Positions 5,416-24,100 of a DNA stretch of 25,691 bases are shown one piece after another. Each line of letters opens with the position of its first letter. Position 1 is the stretch's first letter. The position numbers and the translations under genes were made by a program. Under the pieces are notes generated by a model, which was not told where the DNA came from, searched no databases, and saw nothing but the letters and a program-made list of their open reading frames with translations. The DNA comes from a virus, in the IMG/VR virus record IMGVR_UViG_3300021437_000075, positions 1-25,691 of that record. One strand, given 5' to 3'.

Positions 5416-5523
5416 GTGAATGAACTTGGAGACGAGAGGTTTCTCACCCCATGCCTCAAGGATATGACGCCGGCTTCAATAGCGGATGCTTTGGGCAGCG
5501 TTCAAAGCGAGGCAAAGACGTGA
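5416..5523 (+). CDS. Tiny hypothetical ORF before terS (35 aa)
   Basis: GTG at 5416 opens a 35-codon frame (begins MNELGDERFLTPCLKDM) that ends in TGA overlapping the GTG proposed as the TerS start. The run of GTGA-type overlaps from 4949 onward favours it as a real coupling ORF, but its reading region could instead be the N-terminus of a longer TerS starting at 5451. No family recognised. Confidence 0.3.
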   Translation: MNELGDERFLTPCLKDMTPASIADALGSVQSEAKT

Positions 5524-5990
5524 GCCTCGATGGACTGACACCGAAGCAAGAAGCGTTCGTCTCTTCCTACCTTGAGACTGGGAATGCAACCGAAGCCTAT
5601 CGCCGTTCTTACGATGCTAAGAACATGAGCGAGGCAACAATCAACGTTAAGGCGTGCGAGCTACTAAAAAACGGTAAGGTCGCGGTAAGATTGCAGGTAC
5701 TACAAGAGCGCGCAGCTTCAAAAGTCGTTCTAACACGGGCATGGGTGCTCGAACGTCTTATGCGAAACGCCGATAAGGCCCTCGAACTCGAAGACCTCAC
5801 AGCTTCGAACAAAGCCCTCGAACTTCTCGGCAAGGTAGATGAGCTTTCGCTATTCGTGGAGCGGACGAGTGCCACCACAGACAATCGACATACTGTCTCG
5901 ACGGAGCCTGTATCCGCGTTTCATGAGTTCCTTGCTGGCTCTGCCGGAGAACCATCAGAAAAGCCATCTAAGGGATCTGTACCGAACTGA
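5520..5990 (+). CDS. terS: Terminase small subunit
   Basis: The 156-residue product begins LTPKQEAFVSSYLETGNATEAYRRSY (spread over residues 6-31), the helix-turn-helix start typical of Terminase_2 type small subunits, followed by a second helix pair (ATINVKACELLKNGKVAVRL) and an oligomerisation coiled coil near VLERLMRNADKALELEDL. Small subunits bind the packaging site on concatemeric DNA and load the large subunit. Start: GTG 5520 has GAGG nearby (5510-5513) and overlaps the preceding ORF; an in-frame ATG at 5451 would add 23 residues and is the alternative. The C-terminus overlaps the start of terL by about 68 bases in another frame. Confidence 0.8.
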   Translation: MSLDGLTPKQEAFVSSYLETGNATEAYRRSYDAKNMSEATINVKACELLKNGKVAVRLQVLQERAASKVVLTRAWVLERLMRNADKALELEDLTASNKALELLGKVDELSLFVERTSATTDNRHTVSTEPVSAFHEFLAGSAGEPSEKPSKGSVPN

Positions 5991-8499
5991 CCTCTATGCG
6001 CTCCTGCGCTATGGCTTGCGCCGGCCGGACGTAGACCATGAGTGGGTGTTCCAGCGCTGTAGAGAAGTCCAACGGGATATGAACGGCGTGCTCGATTTGT
6101 GGGCCAGAGAGCATTATAAAGCTGTAGACTTGAATGAGCCTGTTGCAACTCCATCGGGGTGGCGTAAACACGGTGATTTGGAGCCAGGTGATTATGTGTT
6201 TGGGCCGGACGGAAAACCAACGCTAGTTGTGGCTCGAACCGAAGTATTTGCGGATGCGGACTGCTACCGCGTAACGTTCTGCGACGGGTATGCAGTGACG
6301 GTGAGTGGTGAACATCTCTGGACCGTTGGGTTGCCGGACAAATCTAGGATCAATGGGACTAATCTTCGTAAGAAGTGGAAGTCTGTAACTTTAAACACTT
6401 GCGCGCTAGCTGATCACGTCTCGCTGGCACATCAGTTCTCATCGCGGCGATACCCTGTGGTCCCTGTAGCCGAAGCAGTTGAGTTGCCAACGCTGTCATT
6501 GCCGCTTGACCCTTATGTTTTGGGCGTCTGGCTAGGTGATGGTTCTCTTGGCGGCCCTAATGTTACGGCTGGGCTGAATGACGCTCAAGAAATGACAGCG
6601 TTGCTAGCCGCGACAGGGATTAAGGTTCGCCAGCGCGTTCATAGCAACGCTGTCACACTTGCGTTGGGTTCTGGTACCCGAGGCAAGAATGGGTCGTCTG
6701 ATGTTACGAATGCCTTGCGCTCGTTGGGTATTCTAAAGGCGAAGCGTATTCCTGCCAGCTACCTTGCGTCATCTGTCGATCAACGCTGGTCTTTGCTGCA
6801 AGGTCTAATGGATACGGACGGGTCATGTGCAATTAGCTGTGGCCAAGCCCTATTCTGCGCGGCAAACGAGGCTCTGGCAGAGGACGTGTTCGATCTCGTT
6901 CAATCGCTTGGCCTTAAAGGCACGCTTAATAAGCGGCATGGCATGTACAAGGGCGAACGCCGTCCTTATTGGCAGGTGCAGTTCTTAGGTCGTGCGGATA
7001 ATCCGCCATTTCGAATGGCGCGAAAAGTCCGGTATTGTTCAGCCTTTGGCAACAAGGCTGTGCGCAAGGTCAAGAGCGTTGAGCCCGTTGCTCCGGTTCC
7101 AGTATCCTGCATTCAGGTGGCGCGTGATGATGGGCTTTATCTGATCGGTCGCAATTATGTGACGACGCATAACTCAACGATCCTCACATTTGCCGGTTCG
7201 ATCTTCCGTATTATCCGCAGCCACGGCGAGAACTCCCCCGAGGAGCGCGAAGTGACGATCGGTATATTCAGCCATACCAAGCCGATTGCTAAAGGGTTTC
7301 TGCGCCAGATCAAGTACGAGCTGGAAACCAACGACCATCTGCAAAAGGTTTACGACGATATCTTCTATGCCAACCCGCGCAAGGACGCGCCCAAGTGGAC
7401 GGAAGACGAGGGAATCCGGGTCATTCGCACGTCAAACCCGAAAGAGGCCACCGTTGAAGCCCACGGCCTTGTTGACGGACAGCCGACCTCGAAGCACTTC
7501 CTGCATCGCCAGTACGACGACGTTGTGACCCTCGAATCCGTCACATCGCCCGATATGATCGCCAAGACGACGCAAGCCTATGAAATGAGCGACAATCTCG
7601 GGACGGAAGGCGGCACGTTTAGCCTGGTCGGCACGCGCTACCACTTCGCAGACACTTACGGCGCCCTGATGAAGCGCAAGAGCGTGAAGGTCCGCACGCA
7701 TCCTTGCACTTACGACGCCACGGAGAACTTCGAGCCTGAGAATTGTGTGCTGATGAAGCCTGAAACCTTGCGTGACAAGCGCATCAATCAGGGTCCGTAC
7801 ACCTTCGGCACGCAGATGCTACTCAACCCGAAAGGCGACGACGCCCAAGCCTTCCGCCGCGAGTGGATCAAGACCATCATCGATCCCGAGCGGCACGGCC
7901 TCAACGTTTACATTCTAGTAGATCCGGCCAACGACAAGCGCAAGACGAACGACTACACGTCATTTTGGGTGATTGGGCTTGGGCCTGACAAGAATTACGT
8001 GGTTCTCGACCTCATTCGCGACCGTATGAACCTGACCGAACGCGCTGAAATGCTGTTCGAGCTTCACCAAAAGTTCCGCCCGTTGCGGGTTGGTTATGAA
8101 AAGTACGGGATGCAGGCCGATATCCAGCACATTCAGTACCTGCAGAAAGAGCGCAACTACCGCTTTGATATCGTGGAGCTGGCCGGCGCAACGCCCAAGC
8201 TCGACCGCATTCGACGCCTGATCCCGTTGTTCGAGCAAGGCCGCATCTATCTGCCCCGTGCCCGCACCTACACCAACTACGAAGGCGTGACGCAAGACCT
8301 CGTTTCGATCTTCATTCACGAGGAATATGCGGCATTTCCGGTCATGAGCCATGACGACATGCTGGATTGTCTTGCTCGCATCGTAGACCCGGAGTTCCCG
8401 ACGTATTGGCCATCCAGCGGTAGCGGACACAAGCCGCAAGTTCTGACCCAAAGGCCAGTCACACCGCAACGTCCTAGCGTGGTTACGCAGCGGTACTGA
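5923..8499 (+). CDS. terL: Terminase large subunit containing an in-frame intein
   Basis: Packaging ATPase and nuclease. The precursor is 858 residues from ATG 5923; removing the 351-residue intein leaves about 507, a normal TerL length. The N-extein ends REHYK and the C-extein begins STILTFAGS, which rejoin as HYKST, the variant Walker A loop of this TerL type. Further motifs are QYDDVVTLES (Walker B region), SLVGTRYHFADTY (coupling motif), and RNaseH-like nuclease acidic residues in ILVDPAND and SHDDMLDCLARI. Before splicing the ATP-binding loop is broken, so activity should depend on intein removal. The start is uncertain: ATG 5839 lies in terS and looks like a shadow extension, ATG 5923 has no strong ribosome-binding site. 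A hairpin with TTTT follows the stop. Confidence 0.93.
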   Translation: MSSLLALPENHQKSHLRDLYRTDLYALLRYGLRRPDVDHEWVFQRCREVQRDMNGVLDLWAREHYKAVDLNEPVATPSGWRKHGDLEPGDYVFGPDGKPTLVVARTEVFADADCYRVTFCDGYAVTVSGEHLWTVGLPDKSRINGTNLRKKWKSVTLNTCALADHVSLAHQFSSRRYPVVPVAEAVELPTLSLPLDPYVLGVWLGDGSLGGPNVTAGLNDAQEMTALLAATGIKVRQRVHSNAVTLALGSGTRGKNGSSDVTNALRSLGILKAKRIPASYLASSVDQRWSLLQGLMDTDGSCAISCGQALFCAANEALAEDVFDLVQSLGLKGTLNKRHGMYKGERRPYWQVQFLGRADNPPFRMARKVRYCSAFGNKAVRKVKSVEPVAPVPVSCIQVARDDGLYLIGRNYVTTHNSTILTFAGSIFRIIRSHGENSPEEREVTIGIFSHTKPIAKGFLRQIKYELETNDHLQKVYDDIFYANPRKDAPKWTEDEGIRVIRTSNPKEATVEAHGLVDGQPTSKHFLHRQYDDVVTLESVTSPDMIAKTTQAYEMSDNLGTEGGTFSLVGTRYHFADTYGALMKRKSVKVRTHPCTYDATENFEPENCVLMKPETLRDKRINQGPYTFGTQMLLNPKGDDAQAFRREWIKTIIDPERHGLNVYILVDPANDKRKTNDYTSFWVIGLGPDKNYVVLDLIRDRMNLTERAEMLFELHQKFRPLRVGYEKYGMQADIQHIQYLQKERNYRFDIVELAGATPKLDRIRRLIPLFEQGRIYLPRARTYTNYEGVTQDLVSIFIHEEYAAFPVMSHDDMLDCLARIVDPEFPTYWPSSGSGHKPQVLTQRPVTPQRPSVVTQRY
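6121..7173 (+). other. Intein (class 3 signature) with LAGLIDADG homing endonuclease
   Basis: 351 codons in frame inside terL. The first residue is Ala, not Cys or Ser (AVDLNEPVATPSG, block A), and the last are VTTHN followed by extein Ser. The block B region is TVSGEHLWTVG with His65 and Trp67; block F is VSCIQVARDDGLYLIGRN with Cys330; Thr349 precedes His350-Asn351. Trp (B:12), Cys (F:4) and Thr (G:5) together are the defining set of class 3 inteins, which use the block F cysteine as the first nucleophile. Two LAGLIDADG motifs are intact: LGVWLGDGS (134-142) and LLQGLMDTDGS (225-235), each with an acidic residue. The segment looks more AT-rich and uses codons such as TTG more than the flanking extein, consistent with later arrival. 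Confidence 0.93.
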
Positions 8500-18411: not shown

Positions 18412-18775
18412 CATGATGGCGGTGGCCTACGACCGGACGGTTCCTGATTTCAACAAGGTGTTAGGCCGCTCGATGGTTGATGACCGGTTCATCCCGTTGG
18501 GGTTTGCGCTCGCGTATTTCGAACCGAGCGGACTCGTCAGCATTCACGCGCATTTTGGACAATGGTTCCGCAAATACCCCAAGGATATTTTACGCGGATT
18601 AAAGCATACAATCGACGAACTAAGGGACATGGGAATCAAAGACGTGTACACTGCGGTTGATATCGGAATTGACGGCGCATTTACCCTTGTTGAGTGGTTG
18701 GGTGGCGTACCCACGGGCGATCAACATGAGATTGGCCCGATCTATAAGATGGCCCTCAAGGATATGAAAATCTGA
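18412..18775 (+). CDS. gp13-like internal virion protein with GNAT-type fold (DUF2833-like)
   Basis: The segment FALAYFEPSGLVSIHAHFGQ, a helical DILRGLKHTIDELRDMG and the closing WLGGVPTGDQHEIGPIYKM follow the strand-helix-strand order of the acetyltransferase-like domain found in T7 gp13 and relatives. Place after the nozzle gene and before the gp14-like gene also fits. The start is unclear. ATG 18412 avoids overlap, but the family-like first strand (FIPIRKTHLD) lies just upstream and in frame; the next upstream ATG is 18263, well inside the nozzle gene. No evidence for enzyme activity. The stop overlaps the HNH gene start. Confidence 0.6.
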
Positions 18776-19551
18776 TGATGAGTGTCGAACGAATCCGGGA
18801 GATGTTCAACTATGATCCGCAAACCGGCGTGTTCACGTGGAAGGTAGGCCGCAACGCTGGAAAGCGCGCAGGATACATGCAGCCTGATGGCAAGCGGGAG
18901 ACGGTCCAAGTTGACCGCAAAAACGTCGATGCGGCGCGTGCGGCATGGGCCTACATCAATGGATCGTTCCCGGCTAAGAAGCTAGACCACATCAACGAAG
19001 ACCCGCTCGACAATAGAATTTCTAATCTGCGCGAGATCGTCAAGGTTGACCCGACGCAGGAGCTAACCGCTGCACGGTTGCGCGAGCTTCTGACCTACGA
19101 ACCAGAAACCGGCAAATTCTACCGCAACACACGCCACGGTGGCACGGTGAGCGGTCGCGAGACGGGAACGCTTGACCCATCAACCGGGTATGTTCGGATC
19201 AGCGTTGATAACGTCAGGCATCACGCGCATCGTTTGGCATGGCTCTACGTGTTTGGGAGCTGGCCCATGCAAACGGTTGACCATGCCAACATGGATAAGG
19301 CCGATAACCGGCTGGTCAATTTGCGTGAGGCGACGCACTCGCAAAACGCATGCAACAAACCTGCGCAGGCCAACAATATGTCGTCCGGCGTCAAGGGCGT
19401 TACGTGGTCAAAGCGGAAAGGTAAGTGGAAAGCCCAAATTGGCTTTGAGGGTCAGTATAGAAGCCTTGGCGAATTCAATAGCGTAGACGAGGCATCCGAG
19501 GCGTACCAAGCCGCAGCAATCAAGCTGCATGGCGAATTCGCGAGGTTCTGA
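18775..19551 (+). CDS. HNH-AP2 homing endonuclease with duplicated HNH region
   Basis: The 258-residue product has two related N-terminal units followed by an AP2-like domain. Unit 1 (about 4-88) has NYDPQTGVFTWK and KKLDHINEDPLDNRISNLRE; unit 2 (about 99-185) has TYEPETGKFYRN, HAHRLAWLYVFGSWP and TVDHANMDKADNRLVNLRE. Unit 2 keeps the HNH set (His152, Asp169-His170, Asn178), whereas unit 1 has Ala54 where the first His would be. The C-terminus (SGVKGVTWSKRKGKWKAQIG to SVDEASEAYQAAAIKLHGEF) is AP2-like. ATG 18775 shares one base with the previous stop; ATG 18778 is equally possible. It interrupts the internal virion protein cluster on the coding strand without breaking a gene. Confidence 0.9.
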   Translation: MMSVERIREMFNYDPQTGVFTWKVGRNAGKRAGYMQPDGKRETVQVDRKNVDAARAAWAYINGSFPAKKLDHINEDPLDNRISNLREIVKVDPTQELTAARLRELLTYEPETGKFYRNTRHGGTVSGRETGTLDPSTGYVRISVDNVRHHAHRLAWLYVFGSWPMQTVDHANMDKADNRLVNLREATHSQNACNKPAQANNMSSGVKGVTWSKRKGKWKAQIGFEGQYRSLGEFNSVDEASEAYQAAAIKLHGEFARF

Positions 19552-20054: not shown

Positions 20055-20489
20055 ATGCCAGATATTCTAACTCCTGGTCCGTTCGGGACGACGATCAAAT
20101 ATAAAGACATGGGCGACGGCACGCATGCACGCGCTGACCAGCTGCCGGCGTCTACCGCGAATACGTCGTGGTCATATGCGGCGGCGGCCGGCGGGATCGT
20201 CAACACAACTGGCGTGACGATCAAAGCGGCATCTGGAGCTGGAAATCGCAACTACGTTTCGAGCCTACAGCTGGCCAACTCGGGCGCCGCTGGAACAGAT
20301 GTGCAGATCCGTGACGGCGCCGCGGGAACGGTGCTATGGCGCGGCTATGTGCCAGCCGGGGCGAACGGAGAATGTCACAACTTTACGCCCCCTCTCAAGG
20401 GTACGGCAAATACTTTGCTTGAGGTTGGCTTGAGTTCCGGCACGACGGTTGCCGTCTACGTCAACGTTCAGGGCTATGTAGGGGTCTGA
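20055..20489 (+). CDS. Beta-rich phage structural protein (144 aa)
   Basis: The ATG follows the previous stop with no gap. The second half has a pattern I associate with a small beta-sandwich found in phage genomes: NYVSSLQLANSGAAGTDVQI, then RDGAAGTVLWRGYVPAG, PPLKGTANTLLEVGL and a final VAVYVNVQGYVGV. No transmembrane segment. A virion surface or minor structural role is plausible; I cannot name the family. The stop overlaps the next ATG by one base. Confidence 0.6.
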   Translation: MPDILTPGPFGTTIKYKDMGDGTHARADQLPASTANTSWSYAAAAGGIVNTTGVTIKAASGAGNRNYVSSLQLANSGAAGTDVQIRDGAAGTVLWRGYVPAGANGECHNFTPPLKGTANTLLEVGLSSGTTVAVYVNVQGYVGV

Positions 20490-23400
20490 TGGCAGTCACG
20501 ATCCCAACGCCTGATGAAGCCTTCGGCGCGGCACAGGCCCCAAGCGCCGTCAATCCAGCGCAGATCGACCCGCGCGTTGCTCATGCGACGGGCCAGGCAG
20601 GCCATGCGTGGCAGAATGCGCTTGAGGCTGTGGGCGGGGCGTTCGGTGAAATCGCCGGACGTGTGGCGCAGACCAACGATGCCACGGCGGAAGCCCGCGC
20701 GAAGCTCGACTGGTACAAGGCCGATCAGGAAAACTGGCGTAACCTTGCCATGGGTGCCCAGCAGGACGGAACGGGCTGGGAAAAGGCCCCGTCCGTTTAC
20801 GATCAGACGCGGCAATCGATTCTCGACAAGTATCCGATTTCCAACCCCCAGCAGCGCCAGAAGCTTGACCTATGGATGCAGCATGAATCCGCACAGCGCG
20901 GGTTTAGTGCAGCCGATCAGAAGCAAAAGGCACTTGGCGGGTATTATACCGGCATCGAGGACAAGGAAATCACCGGGGCGGTCCAGTCGCTCCAGTCCGA
21001 TCCGAGCCAACAGAACTACGACAAGCAGGCCGGGGCTTTGCAGGCCCTCGTAGATAGTGGGCGCGGGCTCTATCATTCGAACGGCTCGGCAGACGCCCGC
21101 AAGGCGCAGATCCAGGGCGCTCTGCTCATGGGGCAGTATCAAGCCCTGTTGCGATCGGACCCGGATGCTGCCGCCATTCTGATCGACAAGATCCGCCGCG
21201 GTGAGCACGAACTGCAGGGCGGACAGAACTACATTCCGCCGAACGGGTCGCAGCCGTCGCGCATGACGTTCCCGGTTCCCGGCATCAATCCAGATGATGT
21301 GCCGCGATCGGGCGGCGCTGAAAACTCACGCGAGCACATGGGTCCGCGCGGTGGCGGAAATCATGCCGGCTGGGACATTCCAGGCCAAGTCGGTTCGCCC
21401 GTGGTGGCGGCTGGTGATGGTGTGGTCATCAAGTCCGGCGAGGGTCAGGGCTACGGATCGTACGTCGATATTCAGATGGCCGATGGCACGATCCATCGCA
21501 TGGCCCATCTCGGAAATACCGACAAGGGCGGCAATCAGCAAGGAATTGTGCCGGGGATTGCGGCAGGAACGCAGGTCAAGCAGGGCCAGCAGATCGGGGC
21601 GCTCGGATACTCTGGCAATGCGGGCAAAGAGTTCCCGCATGTGCATTATGAAGTGTTCCCGGACAAAGCAGCCTACGACAAGGCGCAGGGCCAATCGAGC
21701 CGGGCCAGCGCCGATCTGCGCATCAACCCGCGCGATTACTTCGCCAAGGCGAATGGGTTGGGCGTACCGGCTGCGAACGATAATGTAAGCCAGCCCTCAA
21801 GCGTCACTGGCGGCGGCATCGACCGGTCTGCATTCAGCGCAGAATTGCAGAAACCAGAGGTGCGTGACCGTCTCTTGGCATTGACTGAGGCCGAAGTCGG
21901 CAACCAAGGCCCTGAAGCGCATCAAGCGTTCATGGAGACGATCTTCAACCGGGCTTCCGCGCGCGGTCAATCGCTCTGGGACACGATGCATGGCTCGTAC
22001 TTCCCAGACGTTACGCATCAACGCACCGAAGCGCGATCTGGCGACCCGCAGTTGGCGGAGAAGTATGGCCGTGCATTACAAAGCGTTGTGGCTGGATCGA
22101 ACACGTCTGATTATGCGACCGGCAATGCATCTGGAACGGTCGGCTTTGCAGGCGGTCCACAGACAAAAGAATTTAATGGCGAACGGTTTGGGATCGAGGG
22201 TCCTGATCGAAAATGGGCGGATGAGGCCCGCAAGGGCGGTGCAGCACCACCGGTCGCGCAGCGCGGGCTGGCCCAATACGCAGGGCTTGGCGGTCCTAAA
22301 GGCGTTGTCTCGGATGCCTCCAACGCACCCGCCGCTGAATACCAAGGCGGCGCACAAGCCCAGTCCGTCGATCGCGCTGGCCTCCCCCCCGCGGCCAATC
22401 CAGACGATATCCTCAAGGGCTCGCAGCATGGCGGGTCAGAGGTTGGCGACGACACCGGCACGGCGCAGCAGCCAGGACAGCAGGGCAATTCTGCGACGAT
22501 CCCAACGCCACAAGGACAAGATCAGGGCGCACCGCAGCAAGGTCAGCAACAGCAGGGCGGGCTTGCGGCCGATCTGCGTGAGCAAATCCAGGGCGTGCAC
22601 GACGCGGCGAAGTCTGACCCCGGCGCGCGGCTGGTCGATTCCCTACCGCAAGACTTGGTTGATAAGGTTCGCGAGATGCTGCCCGGCTTACCCGAAGAGG
22701 GCCTAGCCAATCTCACCATGGGCCAAGCCTCGCAGATGCTGGAGCAGATCGTTCCGTCTGATGCCAGCGGCGGCATGGGGATGCAGGAGTTCCCGCTCGC
22801 CCGTCTCAAGCAAGGCCAGACGTTCAGCGTCAAATCCAAGTTCGGCGACATCACGGTGTCTGCGGACGCGCTCAACGCGCTCGGCCTCGACAACAAGAAC
22901 AAGAAAGCCCTGGATCAGATGTACCGGCAGGCCGTCGAAGGCCAGCGGTTCAAGTGGCAATCCGACATCAAGGATGACCTCAAGCAGATCGAACAGACCG
23001 GCATCGGGAAATCTGACGCCGAAATCGCCAAGTGGATCAAGTCAGGTCCGGGCCGCCTGCCCAATATGAAAAACCAGATTCAAGCGTATCAAGAAAAGCG
23101 CGTGCAGATGAAGATGGCGTTCGATGCTGCGTCTGGTATCGAAACCATGAGCCCAGAGGATGCGATTGCGCAGATCCAGGCCTATAATCCAGCCCGCCCC
23201 GGCGTCGATCAGGGCGGCGCACGGTATAATCAACTCGACTACGCCTATCAGCACGCCTACCGCAAACTACAGGCCGTGCAGAAGATGCGTGACCAAGACC
23301 CGGTCACGGGCGTGTCAGGCGGCGCGGTCAAAGTTGGGACTAAGGAAGTCAATCTATCTCCTGCTCCTGAGATCGAAAACGCCAAGCGGTTGTTGGGCCC

Positions 23401-24100
23401 TGGCGACTTGACACCCAACGGCCAAATCATGATCGGGCCGGGTGCGGCGCCTACGGGTCCAGCCGAAGCCGGGGCTCCGGACAAGTCCAAGCGCATCGAG
23501 TTCCTGATTGAAAACCGTCTTGCAGCCCAGCAGCGTGTTGGGGTTTATACGGCCAGCCAGCGCACAATCACCAAGGCCGAAGCCGACGATCTGCTGCGAT
23601 TAGGTGATCCTAAAGACCTCTCTGACCAGCAAATCAGCGATGGCATGAAAGCGGCATGGGGCCGGGCACAGCAGACCTATGGCTCGTATGCCCCGCGTGT
23701 GTTGGAAGATGCGGTCAAGCTGACCAAGCATAACGATGTTGAGAAGGACGCAGCGGCGCGTATTGTTGGTCCAATTGTGCGCGGGGAAGCAAAGGCGCTC
23801 GAAGAGGCTAAACGCGGACCGCAACAGTCATGGTCCAGCTACATCGGTGGCATGTTCGGCGGTGGCGCGAAGAACGATGGCCCGATGGGCCCGCCTGCAC
23901 CGGCATGGGCCACGGGTGCCAACCCCGGCAAGGATGCGCCTAGCGCGCCGTCGGCCCCGCAGGCACCATCACAGCCTGCTCCGCCTCCCGCTCCGACCGC
24001 AAAGCACAAGGCTTGGCTCAAGAACAACCCGGAAGGGCGGTCTGCGTATGAGGCCAAGTTCGGCAAGGGATCAGCTAAAGAGATTCTTGAGGCGAACTAG
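20489..24100 (+). CDS. Large internal virion protein with M23 peptidase and probable SleB-like hydrolase domains (1203 aa)
   Basis: An M23/LytM peptidoglycan endopeptidase domain is visible: HAGWD (His292, Asp296), HRMAHL in the middle, and PHVHYEVF (His384, His386) complete the zinc site. A second domain at about 455-595 begins LLALTEAEVGNQG and MGETI-like IFNRASARGQSLWD, ends FNGERFGIEGPDRKWADEA, and resembles SleB-type cell-wall hydrolases, with Glu467 or Glu469 as candidate catalytic residue. A Gln/Pro/Gly-rich linker follows (about 655-692), then long helical regions and a Pro-rich linker near the C-terminus ending WLKNNPEGRSAYEAKFGKG. In T7 the comparable large ejection protein (gp16) carries a transglycosylase; here the wall-cutting activity appears to be different. 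The stop TAG interlocks with the antisense gene stop in CTAG. Confidence 0.85.
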   Translation: MAVTIPTPDEAFGAAQAPSAVNPAQIDPRVAHATGQAGHAWQNALEAVGGAFGEIAGRVAQTNDATAEARAKLDWYKADQENWRNLAMGAQQDGTGWEKAPSVYDQTRQSILDKYPISNPQQRQKLDLWMQHESAQRGFSAADQKQKALGGYYTGIEDKEITGAVQSLQSDPSQQNYDKQAGALQALVDSGRGLYHSNGSADARKAQIQGALLMGQYQALLRSDPDAAAILIDKIRRGEHELQGGQNYIPPNGSQPSRMTFPVPGINPDDVPRSGGAENSREHMGPRGGGNHAGWDIPGQVGSPVVAAGDGVVIKSGEGQGYGSYVDIQMADGTIHRMAHLGNTDKGGNQQGIVPGIAAGTQVKQGQQIGALGYSGNAGKEFPHVHYEVFPDKAAYDKAQGQSSRASADLRINPRDYFAKANGLGVPAANDNVSQPSSVTGGGIDRSAFSAELQKPEVRDRLLALTEAEVGNQGPEAHQAFMETIFNRASARGQSLWDTMHGSYFPDVTHQRTEARSGDPQLAEKYGRALQSVVAGSNTSDYATGNASGTVGFAGGPQTKEFNGERFGIEGPDRKWADEARKGGAAPPVAQRGLAQYAGLGGPKGVVSDASNAPAAEYQGGAQAQSVDRAGLPPAANPDDILKGSQHGGSEVGDDTGTAQQPGQQGNSATIPTPQGQDQGAPQQGQQQQGGLAADLREQIQGVHDAAKSDPGARLVDSLPQDLVDKVREMLPGLPEEGLANLTMGQASQMLEQIVPSDASGGMGMQEFPLARLKQGQTFSVKSKFGDITVSADALNALGLDNKNKKALDQMYRQAVEGQRFKWQSDIKDDLKQIEQTGIGKSDAEIAKWIKSGPGRLPNMKNQIQAYQEKRVQMKMAFDAASGIETMSPEDAIAQIQAYNPARPGVDQGGARYNQLDYAYQHAYRKLQAVQKMRDQDPVTGVSGGAVKVGTKEVNLSPAPEIENAKRLLGPGDLTPNGQIMIGPGAAPTGPAEAGAPDKSKRIEFLIENRLAAQQRVGVYTASQRTITKAEADDLLRLGDPKDLSDQQISDGMKAAWGRAQQTYGSYAPRVLEDAVKLTKHNDVEKDAAARIVGPIVRGEAKALEEAKRGPQQSWSSYIGGMFGGGAKNDGPMGPPAPAWATGANPGKDAPSAPSAPQAPSQPAPPPAPTAKHKAWLKNNPEGRSAYEAKFGKGSAKEILEAN

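Follow-up and report, generated by a model that had tools for sequence, protein, structure and literature searches.

A predicted class 3 intein in the Walker A loop of a phage large terminase subunit, and the evidence that its family moves

A gene for a large terminase subunit (TerL) whose Walker A loop is split by a long in-frame insert raises two questions: what kind of element is the insert, and does it still move between phages? The gene lies in what we call the window, the whole stretch of DNA analysed, which is the complete 25,691-base IMG/VR record IMGVR_UViG_3300021437_000075 and possibly only part of a phage genome. The features of terL, its insert and the small terminase gene described below are all on the plus strand.

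The interrupted terminase gene

From the open reading frame list and its translation, the insert is a 351-residue segment at 6121-7173 within a TerL frame (5839-8499) that is uninterrupted by stops across 886 codons, insert included. The junction codons are AAA (Lys, 6118-6120) followed by GCT (Ala1, 6121-6123) on the N side, and AAC (Asn351, 7171-7173) followed by TCA (Ser+1, 7174-7176) on the C side; with a slash marking the junction, the peptides read LWAREHYK/AVDLNEPV and GRNYVTTHN/STILTFAG. Codon-level inspection of both junctions thus reproduces exactly the boundaries proposed in the first-pass annotation, and the splice residues that it named (Ala1, Trp67, Cys330, Thr349, His350 and Asn351) are all in place; His65 in block B is added here. 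The insertion point falls between Lys and Ser of an HYK/ST Walker A loop, the first half of which (A-R-E-H-Y-K) occupies 6103-6120 and ends in a Lys that is invariant among relatives. The same annotation had called this sequence a Walker A loop, and that placement is borne out by relatives, some of which have a normal GKS Walker A at this point (REHGK/SS), and by a structure model of an empty-site TerL (L004), in which a strand (75-77) precedes the insertion point and a helix (87-100) follows it, as in a P-loop. The mean pLDDT of that model is 76 and is low in the loop itself; in a fold search it matched terminase structures, the best being the terminase of the T7-like phage PhiV-1.

The remainder of the gene is recognizable as a large terminase. 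The C-extein (7174-8499) carries Ser+1, the rest of the ATPase with a Walker B-like YDD (7513-7521), and an RNase H-like nuclease, and it matches the phrog_38 terminase family (4.9e-47) and Terminase_6C (1.1e-5); profiles and the fold search agree on a TerL-type ATPase joined to an RNase H-like nuclease. Terminase_6C was the only Pfam terminase profile to match, Terminase_1 being absent, which puts the protein outside the host family of the mycobacteriophage intein TerL1-a, and a profile search of this TerL against PDB sequences returned matches at chance level only. The N-extein probably begins at a GTG at 5869 (5869-6120), rather than at the ATG that opens the frame at 5839: a GGAG lies seven bases upstream (5858-5861), and the GTG is in register with the starts of three relatives (L001, L003 and L004). 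The spliced product is therefore more likely to have 525 residues (535 from the ATG) than the 507 given in the first-pass annotation, a figure that fits an internal Met codon at 5923; the 351 residues given there for the free intein stand.

The small terminase subunit is encoded just upstream (5451-5990; PF03592 Terminase_2, 2.8e-13; phrog_51), and terL is followed by genes for portal, capsid, tail and internal virion proteins. The host looks like an uncultured phage of the T7-like (podovirus) type; isolated phages gave no DNA-level match to the window, and the N-extein used alone as a query found no match in phages. Three other genes of the window deserve mention in their own right. A free-standing HNH endonuclease with an AP2 domain (18775-19551), between the tail and internal virion genes, is a second likely homing element. 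The gene at 753-1418 matches part of phrog_799, a family of phage DNA methyltransferases (profile positions 202-398 of 458), and may be truncated, and a 1203-residue protein (20489-24100) with an internal M23 peptidase domain at about residues 291-396 is probably a virion-associated lysin.

Class 3 signature and predicted fold

Class 3 inteins are distinguished by Trp at B:12, Cys at F:4 and Thr at G:5 (the WCT signature), together with His at B:10, His at G:6, Asn at G:7 and Ser or Thr at +1 (PMC5222942). The insert has Trp67 (6319-6321), Cys330 (7108-7110), which is the predicted initiating nucleophile, and Thr349, the last being followed by His350 and Asn351 in block G (7165-7173); a predicted catalytic His65 (6313-6315) and Ser+1 complete the set. 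Position 1 is Ala, where class 1 requires Cys, Ser or Thr.

With TerL and the intein as queries, 20 distinct alleles were recovered at exactly this TerL site, the window allele included. One of them (L091) is in a contig of Pseudomethylobacillus aquaticus, presumably a prophage, and the others are in viral contigs. His65, Trp67, Cys330, Thr349 and Asn351 are kept in all 20, and position 1 is Ala, Asp, Gly or Met in every one, never Cys, Ser or Thr. The same five residues are invariant across 89 homologous inteins, many of which interrupt the P-loops of other proteins between Lys and Ser or between Lys and Thr, while the penultimate His is found in 86 of the 89. Because the patterns used in the homolog search were taken from the endonuclease motifs and not from the WCT positions, this conservation is independent of the way in which the homologs were found. 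Relatives in IMG/VR were retrieved by the alignment search but not with the intein as a single query sequence; the Pfam Intein_splicing profile was undetected in the record despite the clear class 3 homology. Among solved sequences the best matches are class 3 DnaB inteins (7e-19), with the HxW, C and THN motifs aligned.

The fold model leads to the same assignment. An AlphaFold2 model of the intein (pLDDT 93.2) shows a HINT fold. Its splicing domain superposes on that of the class 3 MsmDnaB intein (6bs8), with 125 residues fitted at 1.3 A and 39% identity, and the full-length model can be aligned with PI-SceI, itself an intein that contains a LAGLIDADG endonuclease (336 residues, Z 28). With the WCT residues invariant, no position-1 nucleophile at this site, class 3 members as the closest solved sequences and class 3 phage inteins as the nearest named relatives, the window TerL almost certainly carries an intact class 3 intein, as the first-pass annotation had argued. 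That annotation held that standard class 1 homologs at this site would speak against its reading, and a scan of the position behind the conserved N-extein, limited to Cys1 and to CGN codons for Arg, yielded a single locus, L176, whose frame there is 24 codons long and hence no intein.

Two groups of variants lie close to this family. In three related same-site class 3 alleles (L143, 885-1850; L181, 550-1509; L184, 3806-4741) the penultimate His is replaced by Phe or Cys (TFN, TCN) and the other signature residues are kept; these alleles should be useful for probing the role of that residue in class 3 splicing. Elsewhere, the WCT signature occurs together with Cys or Ser as the first residue in inteins of Acidovorax phage ACF1 (L185, 460-1512) and of two further loci (L136 and L175); a position-1 nucleophile alone is thus no ground for excluding class 3.

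Predicted homing endonuclease and horizontal movement

The first-pass annotation considered both LAGLIDADG motifs intact and suggested that the element may still be mobile; the first point was confirmed and the second is now stronger. The endonuclease domain spans approximately residues 119-299 (6475-7017) and has the PI-SceI/I-DmoI fold, with a Pfam LAGLIDADG_3 match (PF14528, 3.4e-5) over residues 224-292. Motif 1 (VLGVWLGDG, 6517-6543) contains the predicted catalytic Asp140 and motif 2 (LQGLMDTDG, 6796-6822) the predicted catalytic Asp233, and there is no stop. Asp140 is invariant in the 20 same-site alleles and Asp233 in those alleles and the homologs, conservation that, coming from the motifs used in the search, is not independent of how the homologs were found.

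The site itself is often unoccupied: 83 loci of this TerL family have no insert there (68 once copies are removed), and when mapped on an 88-member TerL tree, the distribution of the intein requires 13 changes. In the intein tree, the window allele forms one clade with those of L003, L182 and L096 (support 100/99). The extein data reject that clade (p-AU 1.1e-6, and 1.3e-61 without the long-branch L096), the groups for these tests having been picked after the intein tree had been seen. Because the two trees conflict so strongly, we read the element as one that moves horizontally among alleles of this site, and that evidence comes mainly from relatives of the window allele.

The most direct trace of movement comes from one pair of relatives. 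L050, with an intein at 978-2000, and L064, which is empty, are about 95-97% identical outside the insertion region; within 58 bp on either side of the insertion they differ at 34 of 115 positions, compared with 9 of 415 just beyond (p 4e-17). This 115-base segment has the highest mismatch of the 3.8 kb compared (maximum elsewhere 17, mean 5.6), and the empty allele is seen a second time in another locus, L065, whose sequence in this region equals that of L064. Since repair of a cut site from an intein-bearing template would leave such a pattern, it is likely to be a co-conversion tract of about 58 bp on each side from a recent homing of a class 3 intein, and the pair thus resembles a natural record of one homing event. 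Chimeric assembly is a possible source of the mismatches, but the chimera would need to cover just a short stretch and extend about the insertion to both sides, with the insertion at its centre. For the window's own flanks, the GC3 of the 10 codons on either side was non-significant as a sign of co-conversion (32 of 505 segments were as low), and among the empty alleles found none was close enough in sequence to the window for comparison.

Does the window allele itself still home, or has it been domesticated, splicing faithfully with an endonuclease that is dead or unused and passing by vertical inheritance? The closest intein known to us from these searches, that of L003 (IMG/VR 3300048588_000251), is 69% identical and its extein 71%, and divergence of the two at about the same rate is what vertical descent would predict. 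On the other hand, the nearest exteins (L001, L002, L004 and L006) are all empty at the site, and the extein tree pairs the window with L001 and L003 with L004 (supports 94 and 93). The intein also has a GC3 of 0.516, against a minimum of 0.63 over 392 equally long segments from the other genes tested. Furthermore, both catalytic Asp residues are intact in a stop-free frame, the fold model is confident throughout the endonuclease domain, and between the window and L003 endonucleases replacement changes are far fewer than the silent ones, which are saturated and for that reason make dN/dS imprecise. Domestication is therefore a minority reading, which we consider unlikely, and the endonuclease of the window allele is probably still active.

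Proposed mechanism and known systems

Following the biochemistry of class 3 inteins, Cys330, which would form a triad with His65 and Thr349 against which Trp67 packs, would attack the Lys/Ala1 bond and form the block F branched thioester. The N-extein would then pass to Ser+1, Asn351 would cyclise with the assistance of His350, and an acyl shift would link Lys to Ser and restore the HYKST P-loop. In homing, the endonuclease would cut the P-loop codons of empty terL genes carried by co-infecting phages, and the intein would be copied into the break during repair. We infer by analogy with related elements that the window allele would splice, would do so in this order of steps, and would cleave DNA. 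From what is known of P-loops, the unspliced TerL would be unable to hydrolyse ATP, making packaging dependent on splicing.

This dependence invites the idea of a switch. Redox-responsive splicing has been reported for a mycobacterial DnaB intein (PMC6195587), and by analogy oxidation or modification of Cys330 might keep TerL unspliced with its P-loop broken, so that the element would be retained as a redox-gated control of packaging and not only as a selfish gene. DNA packaging would then wait on the state of the host cell, a possibility that we regard as improbable. Less probable again is a class 2-like intein that merely resembles class 3, splicing directly from Ser+1 with Cys330 dispensable: lack of a position-1 nucleophile is a class 2 hallmark too, and the WCT inteins that begin with Cys or Ser blur the class borders. 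Against it, Ala1 rules out class 1, Cys330, Trp67 and Thr349 are invariant in the homologs, class 3 members are the best-matching solved sequences, and the class 3 inteins tested were unable to fall back to the class 2 route (PMC5222942). Least credible of all is a non-splicing insertion, whether a terL pseudogene or a TerL cleaved into two proteins, given the open frame with every splice residue present, the flanking small terminase and virion genes, and the lack of any other recognised packaging ATPase among the genes searched.

Class 3 inteins are known in phages, and an origin there has been proposed for them. In mycobacteriophages, terminase is the protein that most often hosts an intein, and five terminase inteins have been proven to splice and two to cut empty alleles (PMC5050341). 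The mycobacterial class 3 inteins MsmDnaB1 (6bs8) and MchDnaB1 (6rix/6riy) have the same WCT, with His65 and Trp67 identically numbered and a splicing domain 39% identical (1.3-1.7 A rmsd); in MchDnaB1 the triad is Cys124-His65-Thr143 with Trp67 (PMC7664689). These are mini-inteins without an endonuclease in a bacterial helicase, whereas the window intein has an endonuclease and resides in a phage TerL.

Closer in setting are TerL1-a to -e of mycobacteriophages (for example Gaia, Baka and Bethlehem; PMC5050341), which interrupt the ATPase domain of terminase and include class 3 inteins; TerL1-a sits between the Lys and Thr of the P-loop, the same point as the window insertion. Their hosts, however, are Terminase_1 proteins of other phages, whereas the alleles described here occupy a T7-like/phrog_38 TerL of uncultured phages, and the mycobacteriophage inteins are only about 36% identical to the window intein over its full length, the level of the best matches in annotated phages. 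Gordonia phage YungMoney (GK/S) and phage ACF1 (GK/T) likewise have WCT inteins at a terminase P-loop, 33-36% identical, in TerLs different from that of the window, ACF1 adding its Cys at position 1. As the first-pass annotation stated, class 3 inteins occur in phage terminases. L003 shares the site and the TerL family and is a separate allele, whose own nearest exteins are also mostly empty. Given a best annotated-phage match of about 36%, a TerL family without a close isolate and a nearest relative at 69%, this is a new allele family and no new mechanism, class 3 inteins and insertions between Lys and Ser or Thr of the P-loop being already familiar in phage terminases. Its 20 alleles share a single, well-defined P-loop site in a TerL family with many empty relatives, and so make homing and splicing of class 3 inteins testable outside mycobacteriophages.
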